Source of the DNA: Lacrimispora sphenoides
GTDB lineage: Bacteria; Bacillota; Clostridia; Lachnospirales; Lachnospiraceae
Direction of reading: 5' to 3'
Length of the DNA: 64,000 bases
Assembly (NCBI RefSeq): GCF_900105215.1
Contig: NZ_FOIP01000002.1
Coordinates: 1,240,001-1,304,000, forward strand
In this document: positions 1,877-33,997 of the stretch, piece by piece
Layout of the letters: every line of letters starts with the position of its first letter
How positions within the stretch are numbered: the stretch's first letter is position 1
The notes under the pieces: model-generated
Database searches by the model: none
What the model was told of the DNA's origin: nothing
What the model saw: only the letters and a program-made list of their open reading frames with translations
Position numbers and translations under genes: made by a program

Positions 1877-1930
1877 GCGAGAAGGGGCGAGAGGCTAATC
1901 ATAAAGGATACTGTCAAAAATGTGATAAAA
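1877..1930 (+). pseudogene. Fragment of the Cys-rich peptide gene found before rtcB
   Basis: About 53 bases nearly match 27483-27535, the middle of the small Cys-rich gene that overlaps rtcB in island B. The shared stretch includes GCGAGAAGGGGCGAGAGGC and GGATACTGTCAAAAATGTG. No open frame remains. With the rtcB 3' fragment at 2474 it shows that this cassette once existed here and was disrupted. The intact GNAT gene at 1965 now occupies the gap. Confidence 0.7.
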
Positions 1931-2473: not shown

Positions 2474-2732
2474 CGATTGATGACTGGAATAAATCTGATC
2501 CACATGAAGACGGTAGATTGATAGGCAGATCACAGGGAAAAGAAACGTTTACTGTATCAGAGTTAAAAAACAAATGAATGGAATTTATACGACATCTGTA
2601 AATAAGGATACTTTATACGAATGCCCCATGGCATATAAAGGTATGGAAGACATCGTAAATAATATAGCTGCCACTGTAAATATTGAAAGTGTCATCAAAC
2701 CTATTTACAATTTCAAAACCGGCGGTGAATAA
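2474..2732 (+). pseudogene. rtcB 3' fragment, decayed copy
   Basis: The sequence matches the last part of the intact rtcB (28565-28821). It includes the equivalent of the peptide AYKGMEDIVNNIAATV and the C-terminal IKPIYNFK region, ending in TAA at 2730-2732. Relative to the intact gene there is a one-base loss near 2568 (GAGTTAAAAAAC versus GAGTTTAAAAAGC), and the first two-thirds of the gene is missing. It cannot encode a ligase. Confidence 0.85.
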
Positions 2733-2954
2733 AATAACTATTTTATGATTCGTGATTGAGATGACCATGTATGGACTTTTAAATAGTTTGTAGAGCAAGG
2801 CTAAACTCTCCATGCTATGAATTGAATTATTGAGATAATTTAAATTTTATACTATATTGTTATGAACAGGTAGAAGTGGCATTAGCCACTTCTGGATAAT
2901 GCCATGTGAGTAAATTACTATCAATTAACTATAGATAAGACTTTTAAAGCCATA

Positions 2955-8613: not shown

Positions 8614-8711
8614 AGTCCTTAGAGTTTTAAGATCAACTCATAAACTATTACGAGCGCTATGAACATATTTGACTTATCCATACAAGCACTTCCACTAAAG
8701 TGGTAGATCTA

Positions 8712-8846
8712 TCAAACAAGCATCGCACTATCGATAAAATCATCACTGATGCTTTGAACAGGTAGTTTATTCATTAAGTCAGCCAGCTGCTGCGAGGAAT
8801 TTTCAAAATGTTTTCTGAAATATTGCTTCTTTTGATAGGGAATATT
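8712..8846 (-). pseudogene. Unknown protein C-terminus inside the long repeat, copy 1
   Basis: The reverse strand is open for 44 codons, giving KKQYFRKHFENSSQQLADLM, then NKLPVQSISDDFIDSAMLV and a stop. The composition looks like real protein and is kept in the second copy (33059-33193). There is no start codon and the family is not recognised. Confidence 0.35.
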
Positions 8847-8852
8847 TCAATG

Positions 8853-8945
8853 GGGGGTGTTGCTACCGGATCAAAGGGTGTGATGACGATGAACGTCAAC
8901 CGTTTTGTCCAGATTGCAACAAGAGATGGTAAAGACATTATAGTC
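8853..8945 (+). pseudogene. nrdD fragment, copy 1
   Basis: About 30 codons encode GVATGSKGVMTMNVNRFVQ, which fits anaerobic ribonucleoside-triphosphate reductase near its C-terminal half. The longer copy at 33213-33610 makes the identification firm. Here the preceding part is deleted. Confidence 0.65.
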
Positions 8946-8964
8946 AAACTGTGTAGGCAATGCT

Positions 8965-9213
8965 TTGAGACGTGCCTGTGTCAAAGCTAATATAACTCAA
9001 AAGTCAACACATAAGATAAGGAAGACATTCGCTAGCAAATTAGATGCAAATGGCGTTCCGACTGATGAGATCCGCATTTTACTTGGACGTACGGACACAC
9101 AAATGACATTAGGATATATCTATAATCCATTACCAAAGAATGAAACTCTTGAAATGATTCGAAATGCTTTTTTAATGTTAACAAGGTGTAGTCAAGTGTA
9201 TTTATTTTGTTAA
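8965..9213 (+). pseudogene. Tyrosine recombinase C-terminal remnant, copy 1
   Basis: The frame encodes STHKIRKTFASKLDANGV, then IRILLGRTDTQMTLGYIYNP, the H-x-x-R box, the LGH-like box (His replaced by Arg here) and the catalytic Tyr region of a phage-type integrase. The N-terminal domains are absent. It is the counterpart of 33629-33877, where LGH is kept. Its place beside the tRNA-derived att sequence is where island integrases usually sit. Confidence 0.75.
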
Positions 9214-9216
9214 AAA

Positions 9217-9254
9217 AAGCCTCAAACCCTTGCGGCACAAGGAATTTAAGGCTT
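9217..9254. terminator. Hairpin after integrase remnant, copy 1
   Basis: AAGCCTCAAACCCTTG pairs imperfectly with CAAGGAATTTAAGGCTT. It lies between the integrase stop and the att sequence and is repeated after copy 2 (33881-33918). Confidence 0.6.
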
Positions 9255-9262
9255 CATCACAG

Positions 9263-9288
9263 AGCAGATAACGGGAATCGGACCCGCC
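9263..9288 (-). repeat. Island attachment site: tRNA-Gly 3' fragment
   Basis: These 26 bases are identical to 33927-33952, the 3' end of the tRNA-Gly(CCC) gene on the minus strand. The sequences diverge immediately afterwards (AAACCAAC here, TCCTCAGC in the intact tRNA). This is the expected junction between two elements integrated in tandem in the tRNA 3' end. Confidence 0.85.
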
Positions 9289-17972: not shown

Positions 17973-18058
17973 AGTGCCGAAAAGTGCCGTATTTACTGGA
18001 TTTTACGGCGCTTTTATGGTATAATTATGACAGTTAAAAAGCAAAGGGACTGTCATCA

Positions 18059-19597
18059 ATGGCGCATAACAATCAGGTTGAAAATCTCGAAAACCGCATC
18101 GCTGAGTTAGAAAAAGAAAACCTTCTTCTTCACGAAAAGGTTGTTTTTCTGACCAGAAAACTTTATGGCAGGACTACGGAGCAGACATCATCTCTTGGAC
18201 TCGAGGGACAGATGTCTCTTTTTGATGAAGCTGAAACCTCCTCGGACCCGAAGGCGGCAGAGCCAGATTTGAAAGATGTTGCGTCTTATCGCCGCCGCAA
18301 ACACAAAGGGCAAAAAGAAGAACTGTTGAAGGATCTCCCCCATGAAAAGAAACTTTGTACTCTTGCGGAAGAAGACCGCTTCTGCGAAACCTGCGGCACT
18401 CCACTTGAATCTGTTGGGGAGGAATTCGTCCGTACTGAAATTGAATTTATTCCTGCTAAAGTGCGTGTCATCGATTATTACCATGAGACCTTTGAATGCA
18501 GAAAGTGCCGTAAGGAGGGAAAAGAATACATGGAGAAATCTCCAATGCCTTATCCGGTAATCCAACACTCTTATGCTTCCCCCGGAGCGGTTGCATGGGT
18601 CATTCATCAAAAGTATGAACTTGCTGTTCCTTTATACCGTCAGGAAAAGGAATGGGAAAGCCTCGGAGTAGCCTTAAGCCGTGCAACGATGTCAAACTGG
18701 ATTCTTACCAGTTATCGGGACTGGCTTTCCCCGGTTGTTGGACTCCTTCATAAAAAACTATTAGAGCAGCAATACCTTCACATAGATGAAACACCCGTAC
18801 AGGTCATGAATGAACCAAATCGAAAGAATACAACGGATTCTTATATGTGGGTATACTGCTCTATCAAAGGCTTTGAGCAGCCAATTCGCCAGTTCGTATA
18901 TCAACCAGGGCGAAGCGGAAAATATCCTCAGGAATATCTGGAGGGATACCATGGATTCATTCATACCGATGCTTACAAAGGATATGAAAAAGTATCTGGT
19001 ATTATCCGGTGCATCTGCTGGACCCATCTACGGAGATACTTTGTTGAAACTCTCCCCAAAGATGTAGACAGCCCAGAAGCAACCATTCCAGCTCAGGCAG
19101 TCAAATATATCAACCAACTTTTTGAGATTGAGAAAAAACTGGAAATCCTATCCCCCGTAGGGCGGAAAGAACAGCGTCTACTACAGGAAAAACCTGTACT
19201 GGATGCCTTTTGGTCATGGGTAAAAGAAATCTCACCTAAAGTACTTCCGAGTTCCAAACTGGGCAAAGCCTTTCAGTACGCGAATAACCAAAAAGATGGA
19301 CTGTTGAATTATCTTCTTGATGGTAACTGCAGCATATCAAACAATCTGGCGGAGAACAGCATCCGGCCATTTACAATCGGCCGCAAGAACTGGCTGTTCT
19401 CAGGAAGTCCCAAAGGGGCAGAAGCAAGTGCAGGTATTTATACTTTAATTGAAACCGCCAAAGCCAATGGATTAAATCCATGGAAGTATATCCAATTCAT
19501 TCTCAGCGATATTCCCGGAACTGCATTTCTTGAATATCCAGAATATCTGGAAGAATATATGCCATGGGATCCAATGGTTCAAAAACTTTGTCGCTAA
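18059..19597 (+). CDS. tnpC: IS66 transposase TnpC
   Basis: 512 residues, full length. An N-terminal coiled coil (VENLENRIAELEKENLLLHE) and LTRKLYGRTTEQ are followed by a zinc-binding region (FCETCGTPLE and CRKCRKEG). The DDE catalytic core includes YLHIDETPVQV (Asp), FIHTDAYKGYE (Asp) and SNNLAENSIRPF with a Glu. The C-terminal IS66 domain is present (NGLNPWKYIQFILSDIPG). The start is the ATG after AAAGGGACTG. It is apparently intact. Confidence 0.95.
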   Translation: MAHNNQVENLENRIAELEKENLLLHEKVVFLTRKLYGRTTEQTSSLGLEGQMSLFDEAETSSDPKAAEPDLKDVASYRRRKHKGQKEELLKDLPHEKKLCTLAEEDRFCETCGTPLESVGEEFVRTEIEFIPAKVRVIDYYHETFECRKCRKEGKEYMEKSPMPYPVIQHSYASPGAVAWVIHQKYELAVPLYRQEKEWESLGVALSRATMSNWILTSYRDWLSPVVGLLHKKLLEQQYLHIDETPVQVMNEPNRKNTTDSYMWVYCSIKGFEQPIRQFVYQPGRSGKYPQEYLEGYHGFIHTDAYKGYEKVSGIIRCICWTHLRRYFVETLPKDVDSPEATIPAQAVKYINQLFEIEKKLEILSPVGRKEQRLLQEKPVLDAFWSWVKEISPKVLPSSKLGKAFQYANNQKDGLLNYLLDGNCSISNNLAENSIRPFTIGRKNWLFSGSPKGAEASAGIYTLIETAKANGLNPWKYIQFILSDIPGTAFLEYPEYLEEYMPWDPMVQKLCR

Positions 19598-19734
19598 CAG
19601 ACAACCTTCAATTATAAACAGAGGTTGTCTGTTTTTCTATACACCAACTTATTTGACGCTTACATACTAGAAATTAGGCGTAAATTTAACGTTGAAAAAA
19701 TCATTTCTTTGTACTGGAATCATAAGATATAAAG

Positions 19735-24215: not shown

Positions 24216-24917
24216 ATGAATAAACTAATATTTTTAGGTAGAGGTTCTGGATATCATTCTACAGAAACCAATACATCAGCATATATTAAAGAAAATGAAG
24301 CATTATTATTAATTGATTGTGGAGAAACGGTATTTAAAAAAATCTTAGAGAAAAATTTAATGAATGGGGTTAAGGAGGTTCATATATTAATAACTCATAT
24401 GCACTCAGATCATATAGGTTCATTAGGTGGATTTATTGGCTTTTGTTATTGGAAATATAAAATAGCAACAAAAGTATACTTTAATGAAAAAGAAAGAATG
24501 AAAGTATTTTTAGAGCTATTAGGCCTTAAAGAAAATGAAAGTTTTGAAATATTAGACTCCAATGAGAAAAGAATTGAATCATTGGGGTTAAATATAAACT
24601 CAAAAATAACTAAACATGTAAAGCCACTTAATACTTATTCGTATATTTTAAGGTTTGATATAGGAAATAGCATTTTTTATAGTGGAGATACCTATGAGAC
24701 TAATATCGATATCTTTAATTTTTTAAAGCATGGAAATTTAGTATATCATGATACATGTATAGATGATTCAAAAGACAGTGTTCATACATCATTAAGAAAA
24801 TTATGTGAATTAGTGCCTGAAGAATATAGAAGTCAAGTTTTTTGCATTCATATAGATGGGGAGAATTTTGATGAAAAGGCGAATAAACAGGGCTTTAGTA
24901 TAGTTAATATTGAATAG
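24216..24917 (+). CDS. MBL-fold hydrolase, RNase Z-like
   Basis: 233 residues. The first zinc motif is ILITHMHSDHIGSLGG (H-x-H-x-D-H), with LLIDCGETV before it and IFYSGDTYETNID after it. LGRGSGYHSTETNTSAYI at the N-terminus resembles RNase Z and related phosphodiesterases. The last His is in FCIHIDGENF. The substrate is unknown: it could cleave RNA ends or small phosphodiesters. AAAAGGAG precedes the ATG. Confidence 0.9.
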   Translation: MNKLIFLGRGSGYHSTETNTSAYIKENEALLLIDCGETVFKKILEKNLMNGVKEVHILITHMHSDHIGSLGGFIGFCYWKYKIATKVYFNEKERMKVFLELLGLKENESFEILDSNEKRIESLGLNINSKITKHVKPLNTYSYILRFDIGNSIFYSGDTYETNIDIFNFLKHGNLVYHDTCIDDSKDSVHTSLRKLCELVPEEYRSQVFCIHIDGENFDEKANKQGFSIVNIE

Positions 24918-26714: not shown

Positions 26715-26862
26715 AAAAGTTCAGTTTTATGTGTGCTCATGGTTGGCTTGCAGATACATCTATACGTAATATGTAAGAAGGGGATAAAAATGAAAATTGG
26801 ATATAAACAATAAAAATAGACATACTTATTTTACACAATAAAATAAGGAGTTGTATGAAAAT

Positions 26863-27297
26863 ATGAGAGAATCAGATACAATAAAACTGTTACGTGAGTG
26901 CGATGCAGGGATAAAAATGGGGGTTGCGTCAATTGATGAAGTTTTAGAATATGCCTATGATGATAAGCTGAAAAAATATCTGATTGACTGCAAAGATAAA
27001 CATGTTAAATTAAAAGAGGAAATTCGCACCCTCTTAGATGAACTTCATGACGACGGCAAAGAGCCGAACCCAATGGCTAAAGGTATGTCGTGGATAAAAA
27101 CAAATGTGAAATTGATTATGAAGGAGTCAGATCATACAATTGCTGATTTGATAACTGATGGATGCAATATGGGCGTAAAATCGCTCAATAAGTATCTAAA
27201 CCAGTATAAGGCGGCTGACGAAAAGCCTAAAGATATTACGAAACGGCTTATTAGCCTTGAAGAAAAGCTTTCCGAAGATATGCATCAGTTTTTGTGA
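26863..27297 (+). CDS. Four-helix bundle protein (ferritin-like, DUF2383-type)
   Basis: 144 residues from the ATG twelve bases after AAGGAG. It is nearly all helix: TIKLLRECDAGIKMGVASID, YLIDCKDKHVKLKEEIRTLL, SWIKTNVKLIMKESDHTIAD and CNMGVKSLNKYLNQYK. The layout, including D-x-H and E-containing helix pairs, resembles DUF2383/PA2169 four-helix proteins. Metal binding is possible but unproven. It lies upstream of the Cys-rich peptide and rtcB. Confidence 0.75.
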   Translation: MRESDTIKLLRECDAGIKMGVASIDEVLEYAYDDKLKKYLIDCKDKHVKLKEEIRTLLDELHDDGKEPNPMAKGMSWIKTNVKLIMKESDHTIADLITDGCNMGVKSLNKYLNQYKAADEKPKDITKRLISLEEKLSEDMHQFL

Positions 27298-27430
27298 GAA
27301 AAAAAGAAATTGAGACATGTGTTTTCAGTGATACATGTCTTGATTCCTACATATTGTTAAATGCTTAGTATGGGCTGAAAGAAGTTGGTAGGAGTGAAAG
27401 AATGGTGAAACGAAAACTGAAGGTGTAAAT

Positions 27431-27616
27431 ATGGCTAAAGATAGAGAAACTCCCTGCAAATATTACATATGCGCGGGAAAGTGCGAGAAGGGGCGAGAGG
27501 CAGATCATAAAGGATACTGTCAAAAATGTGATAAATATTTACCTCGTGCCAGGGTAAGACATATAAATATAAAGAAGAAAAAGTTGGATAAGATCAAGAG
27601 GAATGAAAGGGAATAA
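27431..27616 (+). CDS. Cys-rich small protein coupled to RtcB
   Basis: 61 residues. MAKDRETPCKYYICAGKCEK and DHKGYCQKCDKYLPR give five Cys in a pattern suggesting a zinc knuckle, followed by a basic tail, KKKKLDKIKRNERE, suited to RNA binding. The stop codon overlaps the rtcB start (TAATG), so the two are translationally coupled. A fragment of the same gene near 1877, close to an rtcB fragment, shows that the pair travels together. A partner role in RNA repair is an inference. Confidence 0.8.
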   Translation: MAKDRETPCKYYICAGKCEKGREADHKGYCQKCDKYLPRARVRHINIKKKKLDKIKRNERE

Positions 27617-28821
27617 TGATAGGATTAAAAGGAAAATATAACGAAGCAAAAATATTTACAGATGTTGTAGATGAGGCATCAATAGCACAGGTAATGCTTT
27701 TATTAAATCAAGAATTTGTTGCTGGAAGCAAAATAAGATTAATGCCAGACATTCACGCTGGGGCTGGTTGTACCATTGGTACTACGATGACCATTACTGA
27801 CAAGATTGTTCCTAACCTTGTTGGAGTGGATATAGGGTGTGGGATGGAATGTGTCCAGATTAAAGAAAAACACATCGAATTGCAGAAACTAGATAAATTA
27901 ATTTATGAAAAGATTCCATCAGGCTTCAATGTTAGAACTAAAACGCACAGATATTTTGACAAATGCCAAATTGAAGAATTATATTGTGTAGACAAGGTAA
28001 ATTTAGATAGAGCTGAGAGGAGCCTTGGATCACTTGGTGGTGGTAATCACTTTATTGAGTGTAATAAGGATGATGATGGCAATATTTATATAGTTGTTCA
28101 TTCCGGGAGCCGTCATCTTGGGCTTGAAGTGGCTAATTTTTATCAAAATCAAGCATATGAGGTGTTAAATGGCTCATCGTCTTCTGACAGAGAGAACCTA
28201 ATTGATGAGTTGAAGAAACAAGGCAGAGAGAATGAAATTCAGAAGGCATTGTCAGATCTGAAAAATGTGAAAAGAACAAATGTACCAAAGCAACTTGCTT
28301 ACGTAAGCGGAAAATTATTTGAGCAGTATATCCATGATATGAAAATAGTACAGGAGTTTGCGATGTATAACCGTCAGGCAATGATGGATGAGATAATTAA
28401 AGGAATGGGAGTTCGTGTAACTCAACAATTTACAACAATTCACAATTATATAGATGTAAACAATATGATTCTCCGGAAAGGGGCTGTATCAGCCCAAATT
28501 GGAGAACGCTTGATTATTCCTATAAATATGAGGGATGGCAGCCTAGTATGTATTGGAAAGGGAAATGATGACTGGAATCAATCTGCCCCACATGGAGCTG
28601 GTAGATTAATGAGTAGGTCGCAAGCAAAAGAGACGTTTACTGTATCAGAGTTTAAAAAGCAAATGAATGGAATTTATACGACATCAGTAAATAAAGAAAC
28701 TTTAGACGAATGCCCAATGGCATATAAAGGTATGGAAGACATCGTAAATAACATTGCTGCTACTGTAGATATTGAAAGCGTCATCAAACCGATTTACAAT
28801 TTCAAAGCTGGCGGCGAATGA
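27616..28821 (+). CDS. rtcB: RNA 3'-phosphate ligase RtcB
   Basis: 401 residues. RtcB joins RNA 2',3'-cyclic phosphate or 3'-phosphate ends to 5'-OH ends using GTP and Mn2+. The active site motifs are all present: MPDIHAGAGCTIGTTM, VGVDIGCGMEC with the metal-binding Cys, LGSLGGGNHFIE, VVHSGSRHLG, HNYIDVNN and SAPHGAGRLMSR with the His that is guanylylated. The length matches the shorter RtcB2-like group. It starts on the stop codon of the Cys-rich gene. On a mobile island it may repair tRNA or rRNA cut by toxins or defence nucleases. Confidence 0.95.
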   Translation: MIGLKGKYNEAKIFTDVVDEASIAQVMLLLNQEFVAGSKIRLMPDIHAGAGCTIGTTMTITDKIVPNLVGVDIGCGMECVQIKEKHIELQKLDKLIYEKIPSGFNVRTKTHRYFDKCQIEELYCVDKVNLDRAERSLGSLGGGNHFIECNKDDDGNIYIVVHSGSRHLGLEVANFYQNQAYEVLNGSSSSDRENLIDELKKQGRENEIQKALSDLKNVKRTNVPKQLAYVSGKLFEQYIHDMKIVQEFAMYNRQAMMDEIIKGMGVRVTQQFTTIHNYIDVNNMILRKGAVSAQIGERLIIPINMRDGSLVCIGKGNDDWNQSAPHGAGRLMSRSQAKETFTVSEFKKQMNGIYTTSVNKETLDECPMAYKGMEDIVNNIAATVDIESVIKPIYNFKAGGE

Positions 28822-28844
28822 AATAACTATTCTAAGGGGTATGG

Positions 28845-29048
28845 GTGAAGGAGGTAGAGAATTTCTCTGTGTTGAGAAAAGGTGATAGGGTAAGAAAATA
28901 TAATCGAGAAGACGGCTCATTTAAAGATGGTACAATAGATAAGGGTACAATATTTGGTTTGGCTTATGTAAAATGGAATGACGATGCAGATCATATTGAT
29001 ATGAGTGTTAACTTATATGATGTTGTAAAGCTAAAAGAGAATAAATAA
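28845..29048 (+). CDS. Small SH3-like protein (67 aa), start uncertain
   Basis: About 67 residues if the GTG at 28845 is used; AAGGAGG just inside that frame could instead serve a later GTG or TTG. The core VLRKGDRVRKYNREDGSFKD then KGTIFGLAYVKWNDD looks like a short SH3/KOW-like barrel. It lies 23 bases after rtcB and is probably co-transcribed. The function is unknown. Confidence 0.55.
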   Translation: MKEVENFSVLRKGDRVRKYNREDGSFKDGTIDKGTIFGLAYVKWNDDADHIDMSVNLYDVVKLKENK

Positions 29049-29076
29049 AAGAACTGTTTCTTATAAGGTAAATACT

Positions 29077-29640
29077 ATGGATAAAACAGTTTTAGTTGAA
29101 ATTGACAGAACGATAAAAGAAATTTGGAAAGTAGACGTAAAAAGCGATTATGATAAATATCGCCTTTTACGAGAAGATAGTCTAAAGTGTGCATTATATT
29201 ATCATATGAGAAGAAAACTGGATAGCATTTTAAAAGAGAACAATCTTCGTATATACCCAGAATATTATATAAATATGGGAGGACTAAAATATCGTCCAGA
29301 TATCGTGATTGTAAAAGTAGGTAGTGAAGAAAAACGATTCTTGAAAGATATGATCACAGAAATTGTTGCAATTATTGAGTTAAAATATGAATATGGAAAC
29401 TCTCAGGGTACAGCAAATGTTATTAAACGTGATATCCAAAAAATGAAAGAATATAGACAGAAGATGAAACTGGATTGCCAGTGTTATTTTGCTGTGATTT
29501 ATGAGGAAGAACGTGATTATTTAAACTGGACTGATAAGCGCACATCGAATAGATGGGGAAGGGGCTGTTTGACAGAGATGAATGCTGGATATATTAATGG
29601 CGAAATGACGTTTGAAGTCAATTCTTATAATAATTTGTGA
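29077..29640 (+). CDS. PD-(D/E)XK nuclease-like protein
   Basis: 187 residues. KYRPDIVIVKVG followed about 25 residues later by TEIVAIIELKYEYGN gives the D...(E)xK spacing of restriction-like nucleases, and IKRDIQKMKEYRQK continues with a typical helix. The N-terminal helix LKCALYYHMRRKLDSILKE fits the same fold. A nuclease role is an inference from motif layout; no family name is certain. It is close behind rtcB and the SH3-like gene, so it could be part of the same cassette. Confidence 0.65.
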   Translation: MDKTVLVEIDRTIKEIWKVDVKSDYDKYRLLREDSLKCALYYHMRRKLDSILKENNLRIYPEYYINMGGLKYRPDIVIVKVGSEEKRFLKDMITEIVAIIELKYEYGNSQGTANVIKRDIQKMKEYRQKMKLDCQCYFAVIYEEERDYLNWTDKRTSNRWGRGCLTEMNAGYINGEMTFEVNSYNNL

Positions 29641-29671
29641 GTTGGTTTCCGATTTCGTTTAAGCCGAAGTC

Positions 29672-29705
29672 AGAAAGACGATAGATTTATTCACTATCGT
29701 CTTTC
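29672..29705 (+). terminator. Strong hairpin terminator
   Basis: AGAAAGACGATAG pairs perfectly with CTATCGTCTTTCT around an eight-base loop, 30 bases after the nuclease-like gene. Confidence 0.75.
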
Positions 29706-29832
29706 TTTGCGTCTTAGGCTATACGACTTTGGTTATAAGAACATCGTACCAAGTGACGCGTATGAGAAAATTAAGAGTTATTTATAGCCAAGAAATGGTT
29801 CTTTAAATTGAGAAATGGGGAAATGATTAAAG

Positions 29833-29997
29833 ATGATAGCCGGTAAAGATTTATGGTGGTACGATTATTATAAATATGGATATACAGAAGAAGATTTTGA
29901 AGATAATGTGGTAGCTGACATTGAATGGGAAGAGGTTGTTGAACCAAAGGTGCTGCCAGAAAACATTGAAAGAAATTTTGATAGAAGACATAAATAA
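29833..29997 (+). CDS. Acidic small protein (54 aa)
   Basis: 54 residues beginning MIAGKDLWWYDYYKYGYTEE and ending LPENIERNFDRRHK, rich in Glu, Asp and aromatics. A weak ribosome site (GGGGAAATG) precedes it. It ends in a bidirectional hairpin shared with the cold-shock gene. The function is unknown. Confidence 0.5.
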   Translation: MIAGKDLWWYDYYKYGYTEEDFEDNVVADIEWEEVVEPKVLPENIERNFDRRHK

Positions 29998-32960: not shown

Positions 32961-33058
32961 GAGATACCATAAATTAAGATCAACTCATAAACTATTACGA
33001 GCGCTATGAACATATTTAACTTATCCATACAAGCACTTCCACTAAAGTGGTAGATCTT

Positions 33059-33193
33059 TCAAACAAGCATCGCACTATCGATAAAATCATCACTGATGCT
33101 TTGAACAGGTAGTTTATTCATTAAGTCAGCCAGCTGCTGCGAGGAATTTTCAAAATGTTTTCTGAAATATTGCTTCTTTTGATAGGGAATATT
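33059..33193 (-). pseudogene. Unknown protein C-terminus inside the long repeat, copy 2
   Basis: Same reverse-strand frame as 8712-8846, ending DDFIDSAMLV. No start codon is present and the family is unknown. Confidence 0.35.
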
Positions 33194-33212
33194 TCAATGG
33201 AATATTCAATAA

Positions 33213-33610
33213 CTTTATTTTTCCTGATGGTACGTAGCCTGTATGGAAGAGTGTTAGTTGGTCACAGATGCGATTTATGAAATGGTTTAATCACGAAAGA
33301 TCTAAAACGGTTTTAACATTTCCTGTGGAAACAATGAACTTGCTCAACGATGGCAATGATTATGTTGATAAGGAATACAAGGATTTTACGGCGGAAATGT
33401 ATACTGAAGAGCATTCTTTCTTTACATATACAAGTGATAGTGTGGATTCGTTGGCGTCATGTTGCCGGTTAAGAAACGAAATTCAGGACAACACATTCTC
33501 TTATACTCTTGGGGCGGGGTGTGTTGCTACCGGATCAAAGGGTGTGATGACGATGAACGTCAACCGTTTTGTCCAGATTGCAACAAGAGATGGTAAAGAC
33601 ATTATAGTCA
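33213..33610 (+). pseudogene. Anaerobic ribonucleotide reductase (nrdD) internal fragment
   Basis: The frame encodes MKWFNHERSKTVLTFPVET, DKEYKDFTAEMYTEEHSFF, SVDSLASCCRLRNEIQDNTF and SYTLGAGCVATGSKGVMTMN, a continuous internal stretch of the class III ribonucleotide reductase large subunit, including the SCCRLRNE active-site Cys region. Both ends are lost: on the left it begins abruptly after the small repeat segment, and on the right it joins the integrase remnant. It is non-functional. It marks where an island boundary or deletion joined unrelated genes. Confidence 0.85.
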
Positions 33611-33628
33611 AACTGTGTAGGCAACGCT

Positions 33629-33877
33629 TTGAGACGTGCCTGTGTCGAAGCTAATATAACTCAAAAGTCAACACATAAGATAAGGAAGACATTCGCTAGC
33701 AAATTAGATGCGAATGGCGTTCCGACTGATGAGATACGCATTTTACTTGGACATACGGACACACAAATGACATTAGGATATATCTATAATCCATTACCAA
33801 AGAATGAAACTCTTGAAATGATTCGGAATGCTTTTTTAATGTTAACAAGGTGTAGTCAAGTGTATTCATTTTGTTAA
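33629..33877 (+). pseudogene. Tyrosine recombinase C-terminal remnant, copy 2
   Basis: The frame encodes STHKIRKTFASKLDANGV and IRILLGHTDTQMTLGYIYNP, the H-x-x-R, LGH and Tyr boxes of an integrase, without N-terminal domains. It ends 50 bases before the tRNA-Gly 3' end, the classic location of an island integrase. It is almost identical to 8965-9213. Confidence 0.75.
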
Positions 33878-33880
33878 AAA

Positions 33881-33918
33881 AAGCCTCAAACCCTTGCAGC
33901 ACAAGGAATTTAAGGCTT
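33881..33918. terminator. Hairpin after integrase remnant, copy 2
   Basis: Same stem as at 9217-9254, between the integrase stop and the tRNA 3' end. Confidence 0.6.
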
Positions 33919-33926
33919 CATCACAG

Positions 33927-33997
<71 letters not shown>

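Follow-up and report, generated by a model that had tools for sequence, protein, structure and literature searches.

Described RtcB systems and the locus of Lacrimispora sphenoides

RNA ligases of the RtcB family seal ends carrying a 2',3'-cyclic phosphate or 3'-phosphate to 5'-OH ends, as left by metal-independent RNases. To our knowledge, the substrates and helpers of most bacterial RtcBs are still largely open. Here we describe an rtcB gene of Lacrimispora sphenoides that is directly preceded by a gene for a cysteine-rich, basic peptide of 61 residues. Both lie on a 64,000-nucleotide stretch of contig NZ_FOIP01000002.1 (positions 1,240,001 to 1,304,000), called the window in what follows, to which all plain coordinates refer; the source genome comprises 5.93 Mb in two contigs. 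We propose, with about equal confidence for and against, that the two genes form a mobile RNA-repair unit in which RtcB works with a zinc-finger-like, basic accessory protein that would bind broken RNA for the ligase.

The frame for such a unit is given by modular RNA-repair operons, which Burroughs and Aravind reportedly described in 2016 as combinations of ligase, kinase/phosphatase, nucleotidyltransferase and scaffold genes. Like the present locus, these join an RtcB or ATP-grasp ligase to accessory genes, often on phages, and RlaP and Band_7 partners appear in the phage clusters discussed below. Large phages encode RtcB ligases (PHROG 1075) of the same subfamily of ~400 residues, that of Bacillus phage BM15 being 58% identical; 633 phage records match the source RtcB, 587 of them with 80% or more of the query covered. 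Unlike the Lacrimispora locus, however, these phages come without the peptide, which has no match in 50,697 phage records and is absent from all 18 viral rtcB loci inspected. RNA repair in jumbo phages is treated in PMC7824862, the accessible part of which mentions no peptide of this kind. The same part describes a jumbo-phage pair of a MoxR AAA+ protein and a metallopeptidase-vWA protein, proposed to act in virion assembly and not in RNA repair (PMC7824862). In several loci of one RtcB clade (clade II, see below), a MoxR/DUF2201 pair of this type lies next to the rtcB and peptide genes, yet it was not found at the source locus.

Two cellular systems are also similar in layout. RtcB2-PrfH is a small, sporadic rtcB operon that counters a ribotoxin (PMC9223846). 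The source unit, in contrast, lacks PrfH and its RtcB scores far below the RtcB2 cut-off (TIGR03073, 97.2 versus 271.8 bits); the only two PrfH matches in the genome fall below the cut-off and lie on the other contig, and we thus rejected membership in this system. The Archease-RtcB operon encodes a small partner beside rtcB (PMC3973293), whereas the partner here is a 61-residue, cysteine-rich and basic peptide. This assignment was rejected as well, since Archease has no match in the source genome; it was matched in one of 150 genomes of the family Lachnospiraceae, a sample drawn regardless of the peptide and used throughout. Likewise, an RtcA-RtcB operon with RtcR was rejected because neither rtcA nor rtcR was matched among the ten locus proteins scanned, the peptide and RtcB included.

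A peptide gene linked to rtcB

The unit and its second, decayed copy have the following parts.

27431..27616, + strand: 61-residue cysteine-rich peptide with Lys/Arg-rich tail, zinc-finger-like by inference; open reading frame with 109 homologues, its own sequence included
27616..28821, + strand: rtcB, 3'-5' RNA ligase of 401 residues; PF01139, phrog_1075, active-site residues
27415..28834, + strand: two-gene block in common with congener G167, 88% nucleotide identity, surroundings different
1877..1929, + strand: fragment of the decayed second copy, peptide codons 18-35
2475..2791, + strand: fragment of the decayed second copy, 3' end of rtcB, frame broken

The preliminary description of this DNA had noted that the stop codon of the peptide overlaps the rtcB start, and indeed the TAA and the ATG have one base in common. 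By sequence and active-site residues, the 27616-28821 product is an RtcB (216.5 bits against PF01139, cut-off 27; 468.6 bits against phrog_1075), and the ligase half of the unit is well supported. Its residues D72, C75, N144, H145, H162 and H326 are aligned to active-site positions of an archaeal RtcB, while a seventh ligand, H276, is placed by motif only; we take the metal and guanylate ligands of the P. horikoshii enzyme to be D95, C98, N202, H203, H234, H329 and H404. The other, classical rtcB of the source genome, which lies outside the window (G000:C2:1054465-1055622; L001 1414-2646), contains an in-frame TGA, so the rtcB studied here may be the only intact copy of the genome. Matching classical frames in the congeners G155, G163, G169 and G170 are without a stop.

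In the family sample, 14 peptide matches were found in 11 of the 150 genomes and RtcB matches in 50. An rtcB gene or remnant lies within ~2 kb of nine of these 14 peptides, where 0.033 would be expected by chance; with the source genome left out, the figures are seven of 12 and 0.028. The nine cases are the intact and the decayed copy of the source genome, G144 and G024 (peptide first), G112, G033:C7 and G119 (rtcB first), G025:C6, where the two genes are divergent and ~1.8 kb apart, and G046, where only remnants are left. No rtcB is near the peptides of G122, G131, G025:C13, G104 and G033:C35.

A set of 49 named loci, collected with the peptide profile, gives a similar picture, although the two sets overlap (G144 is L059, G024 is L094, G112 is L065, G122 is L052 and G131 is L054) and are hence not independent. 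Here, rtcB directly precedes the peptide in 16 loci and directly follows it in ten, all 26 within 120 bp, and lies ~3 kb downstream of it in three more. Peptide and rtcB are on the same strand in all 29 linked loci and overlap by 1 or 4 nucleotides in several of them; the rtcB of L072 is fragmented, and that of L082 is truncated by the contig end. Altogether, the link between peptide and rtcB is far above chance, and it is optional. Rarity of this adjacency elsewhere had been named beforehand as the result that would speak against a joint cassette; the neighbourhood search instead found the pair across genera and in both gene orders.

The limits of the unit emerge from 25 genomes of the genus, the source included. 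Nine of them contain any RtcB match, and a full-length close copy (93% identity) is present only in G167. Around the intact copy, G167 has just the block 27415-28834 in common, and the flanking genes differ on both sides; since, in addition, the four-helix and PD-(D/E)XK neighbours described in the last section occur without rtcB, the unit consists of two genes, not five. Both genes are under purifying selection, with a dN/dS between source and G167 of 0.032 for the peptide (three nonsynonymous and 14 synonymous differences) and 0.046 for rtcB.

The fragments of a second peptide-rtcB pair, earlier placed at 1877-2732, were found again on the + strand. They are, however, two separate remnants, with an intact frame of 165 residues between them (1965-2462) that, read by eye, encodes a putative GNAT acetyltransferase. 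This decayed copy has slightly more flank in common with G167 than the intact one, namely 72 bases upstream and ~44 bases downstream; the upstream stretch, 797-868 in the window, matches the region just upstream of the G167 peptide (L121 9046-9117, 89%).

When 47 RtcBs of the family sample were placed in a tree with eight anchors, the linked genes fell into two related clades. The tree was built without G016:C280, G002:C25 and G051:C170, whose identities are those of the next clade, and without the distant classical RtcBs. Of the 22 RtcBs in the two clades, seven have the peptide within 4 kb, namely three of the 11 that make up clade I and its neighbour L133 (the group that holds the source RtcB) and four of the 11 in clade II; in the next clade, none of 25 does. 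The corresponding Fisher p of 0.0027 is optimistic, as rows are related; rows at contig ends are included. Most next-clade loci have only ~1.5 kb of flank, and the family-wide peptide scan lists no match beside them. Because the peptide is scattered within the two groups, its distribution fits repeated gain or loss.

A larger tree of 75 rows gives the same clades but is biased, most clade II rows having come in via the peptide. The peptide comes first in all 11 linked clade I rows, and the 20 clade II rows contain 14 with rtcB first, four with the two genes near each other and one with the peptide first. Among 14 peptide-less rtcB loci inspected by eye, no convincing divergent small cysteine-rich partner was seen. 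Clade II loci often encode a MoxR-type AAA_5 ATPase and a DUF2201 protein (metallopeptidase/vWA), which stand beside clade II RtcBs in L061, L162, L164, L167, L170 and others. Both are present in five of the 11 clade II sample rows and in 11 loci of the named set of 49; the literature search found no paper that mentions both DUF2201 and RtcB.

The peptide family, phage clusters and possible roles

In a large protein set, the peptide has 109 relatives, its own sequence included, that keep four cysteines almost without exception (C9 in 109 rows, C18 in 106, C30 in 108 and C33 in 109), as in small proteins of the zinc-finger type; H26 is kept in 100 of the 109 rows, and the protein is strongly basic, with a tail rich in Lys and Arg. 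The peptide may bind zinc and RNA and may act as a cofactor in RNA repair. Pfam, NCBIfam, PHROGs and PADLOC contain no significant match (best E 0.038), a tblastn search at 1e-5 against annotated phages and plasmids gave none, and in a class-wide draw of 391 genomes only the source genome itself was matched. As far as titles and abstract openings found in the literature go, none names the peptide, which does not prove it unpublished. The small peptide family appears to be the new element, and we found no description of it; the unit as such follows the general layout of modular RNA-repair operons.

Some independent support for a role of the peptide in RNA repair comes from phages. At least nine viral contigs carry the peptide, L139 being a repeat of L098; these counts are a lower bound, as copies are undercounted. 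None of the nine listed contigs has rtcB in its fetched flanks, and no open reading frame of at least 40 residues was recovered from L100. In three of the nine, representing two lineages, the peptide lies in an RNA-repair cluster. The first lineage, L098 (1949-10620) and the nearly identical L140, combines RlaP (23.3 bits in L098, cut-off 23), an AAA_33 kinase with HD domain, a metallophosphoesterase, SIR2, an RNA ligase with OB fold, YpsA, the peptide, PTH2, Thg1 and a second phosphoesterase. The second, L141 (2009-9678), combines Band_7, an OB-fold RNA-ligase-like protein (24.4 bits against RNA_ligase, cut-off 27), Thg1, the peptide and an AAA_33 kinase with HD domain.

In the mechanism that we propose, RtcB would join RNA ends of the 2',3'-cyclic phosphate or 3'-phosphate type to 5'-OH ends. 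The peptide would be a zinc-binding, basic adaptor that holds the damaged RNA, or the tRNA or ribosome carrying the break, and thereby brings the broken RNA to RtcB or aids loading of the ligase. The RNA held for the ligase would probably be tRNA, because PTH2 and Thg1 are found in the phage clusters. As such, the unit may protect the host or the element from RNA-cleaving toxins or defences. tRNA cut by anticodon nucleases, suggested as the substrate in the preliminary description, would be one candidate. AAA_13, a label that we take to denote the PrrC/RloC type, has no match in the source genome, and other sources of damage are not excluded by this.

Alternatively, the unit could act on the ribosome and not on tRNA, sealing breaks in 16S rRNA or elsewhere in the ribosomal context in the manner of RtcB2-PrfH. 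The latter protects against colicin E3 (PMC9223846), and the basic tail of the peptide would suit ribosome binding. We nevertheless consider ribosome repair unlikely, given that no PrfH is adjacent, that the RtcB is far below the TIGR03073 cut-off and that Thg1 and PTH2, the peptide's partners in phages, are proteins acting on tRNA.

The phage clusters bear on the peptide's mode of action as well. It is conceivable that the peptide is an RtcB-specific activator or folding partner that replaces Archease in guanylylation or turnover and has no RNA-binding role of its own. The tight coupling to rtcB, down to overlaps of 1 or 4 nucleotides in several loci, agrees with such a function, as do the absence of Archease from the source genome and its near absence from the family. 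Yet the peptide stands beside two unrelated ligase classes, the phage clusters containing the other main one, which argues against an activator of the Archease kind that serves RtcB only; 20 of the 49 named loci are without rtcB, and most RtcBs of the family are without the peptide. Replacement of Archease hence seems improbable to us. A broader version of our proposal, in which the 61-residue family serves RNA repair independently of the ligase type, as a zinc- and RNA-binding cofactor that mobile elements combine with RtcB or with sets of ATP-grasp ligase, kinase and Thg1 and that labels damaged tRNA or ribosomes for repair, is offered tentatively, as somewhat more doubtful than an even case.

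A number of observations weigh against a repair unit of RtcB and an RNA-binding accessory. Fifteen of the 22 RtcBs in the two clades have no peptide within 4 kb; on the tree, the peptide label is unclustered, with five changes for five rows, and with all labels taken together 107 of 200 shuffles scored as low, that is, the labels are no more clustered than shuffles. In the 20 named loci mentioned above, no rtcB was found in the fetched flanks, some of which end at contig ends, and two of them carry MoxR and DUF2201 instead. On the viral side, no repair cluster was seen on six of the nine listed peptide contigs, only the query contig has the peptide among 26 phage Thg1 loci, and the 18 viral rtcB loci are without it. 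A profile search of the PDB with the peptide gave no significant match, the best being fragments of S26e and PAN2 (E 0.18 and 0.22), and the AF2 model computed from 30 rows is poor (pLDDT 55).

Another possibility is that the peptide binds nucleic acids in general on behalf of mobile elements and phages, for example as a regulator, and that its nearness to rtcB reflects co-inheritance in clusters of accessory genes and not joint function. Many copies are indeed without rtcB, as are large phage contigs, and in eight named loci the peptide is followed by a common protein, three of these loci having a phage-integrase-type gene. However, the pair occurs in either gene order, involves two related clades of RtcB and is at most ~120 bp apart, which exceeds loose co-inheritance, nine of 14 peptides near rtcB stand against 0.033 expected, and two phage lineages set the peptide among RNA-repair genes. 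We therefore regard a general binder as rather unlikely and retain the repair unit of RtcB and peptide at the even confidence given above.

The recurrent follower protein measures ~187 residues and occurs in the rtcB-less loci L049, L052, L057, L060, L063, L066, L069 and L087; the copy from L049, the one that was scanned, has no Pfam or PHROG match, and the integrase-type genes were seen within the listed 3.5 kb. A viral scan with P0031 returned no relative.

Neighbouring genes and implications

Three further genes surround the unit.

26851..27297, + strand: four-helix-type protein, outside the unit; weak DUF2383 match, present without adjacent rtcB in G155 and G158
28845..29048, + strand: 67-residue protein; weak DUF7464 match, no match among the congeners listed
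29077..29640, + strand: 187-residue PD-(D/E)XK-like protein, outside the unit; conserved residues, predicted model, Foldseek matches

The preliminary description had taken all five genes as one cassette, whose products would act jointly. The genes are co-directional and close, and in G154 (L122 8737-9629) the four-helix gene (97%) is joined to the 3' end of rtcB, the peptide and most of rtcB being gone, so that this locus is a deletion derivative. Yet G167 has only peptide and rtcB in common with the source, the four-helix gene of G155 lies on a different contig from its rtcB genes, and G158 has the four-helix gene without any rtcB match. Since the nuclease family also occurs apart from both genes, as detailed below, joint action of the five is highly improbable. 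Matches of the four-helix protein to DUF2383 (E 0.0075) and of the 67-residue, SH3-like candidate to DUF7464 (E 0.054) are below the cut-offs, and the latter has no congener match among the matches listed.

Lack of a nuclease fold in the 187-residue protein had been the second result named beforehand as speaking against the cassette; structure prediction instead points to such a fold, but the protein is not linked to the unit. All 30 aligned rows keep D75, E101 and K103, the D...E-x-K residues of the nuclease core, the predicted model is confident (pLDDT 92.9), and Foldseek matched it to many PD-(D/E)XK nucleases, though at low TM-scores and with only one PDB and 13 viral matches at E <= 0.001; the protein thus looks nuclease-like. 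Its family has 40 relatives, its own sequence included, and no Pfam match. As it is found in three of the 150 family genomes, of which the two besides the source (G029 and G099) have neither a match to the source RtcB nor a peptide or rtcB in the fetched surroundings of the homologue, the protein is not part of the RNA-repair unit.

Between 15000 and 36000, the only Rfam family at the gathering threshold is a tRNA (33927-33997), and a scan of seven related loci gave two tRNAs only. Near-identical direct repeats (98-99%) are located at 8627-9288 and 32974-33952, the second extending into the tRNA-Gly gene at 33926-33997. A multi-copy element covers 18000-19664; the other contig of the source genome holds three more copies at a stated identity of 100%. 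At 24216-24917, a protein with metallo-beta-lactamase fold resembles the anti-Pycsar protein Apyc1 (46.1 bits, cut-off 50).

In summary, the peptide is a concrete candidate helper that can be put to the test, and it offers a way to find RNA-repair loci carried by mobile elements of Lachnospiraceae or by their phages. Should the 61-residue family indeed be a ligase-independent cofactor, it would represent an unusually small dedicated repair adaptor and would provide a sequence tag with which to find unrecognised RNA-repair systems on mobile DNA.

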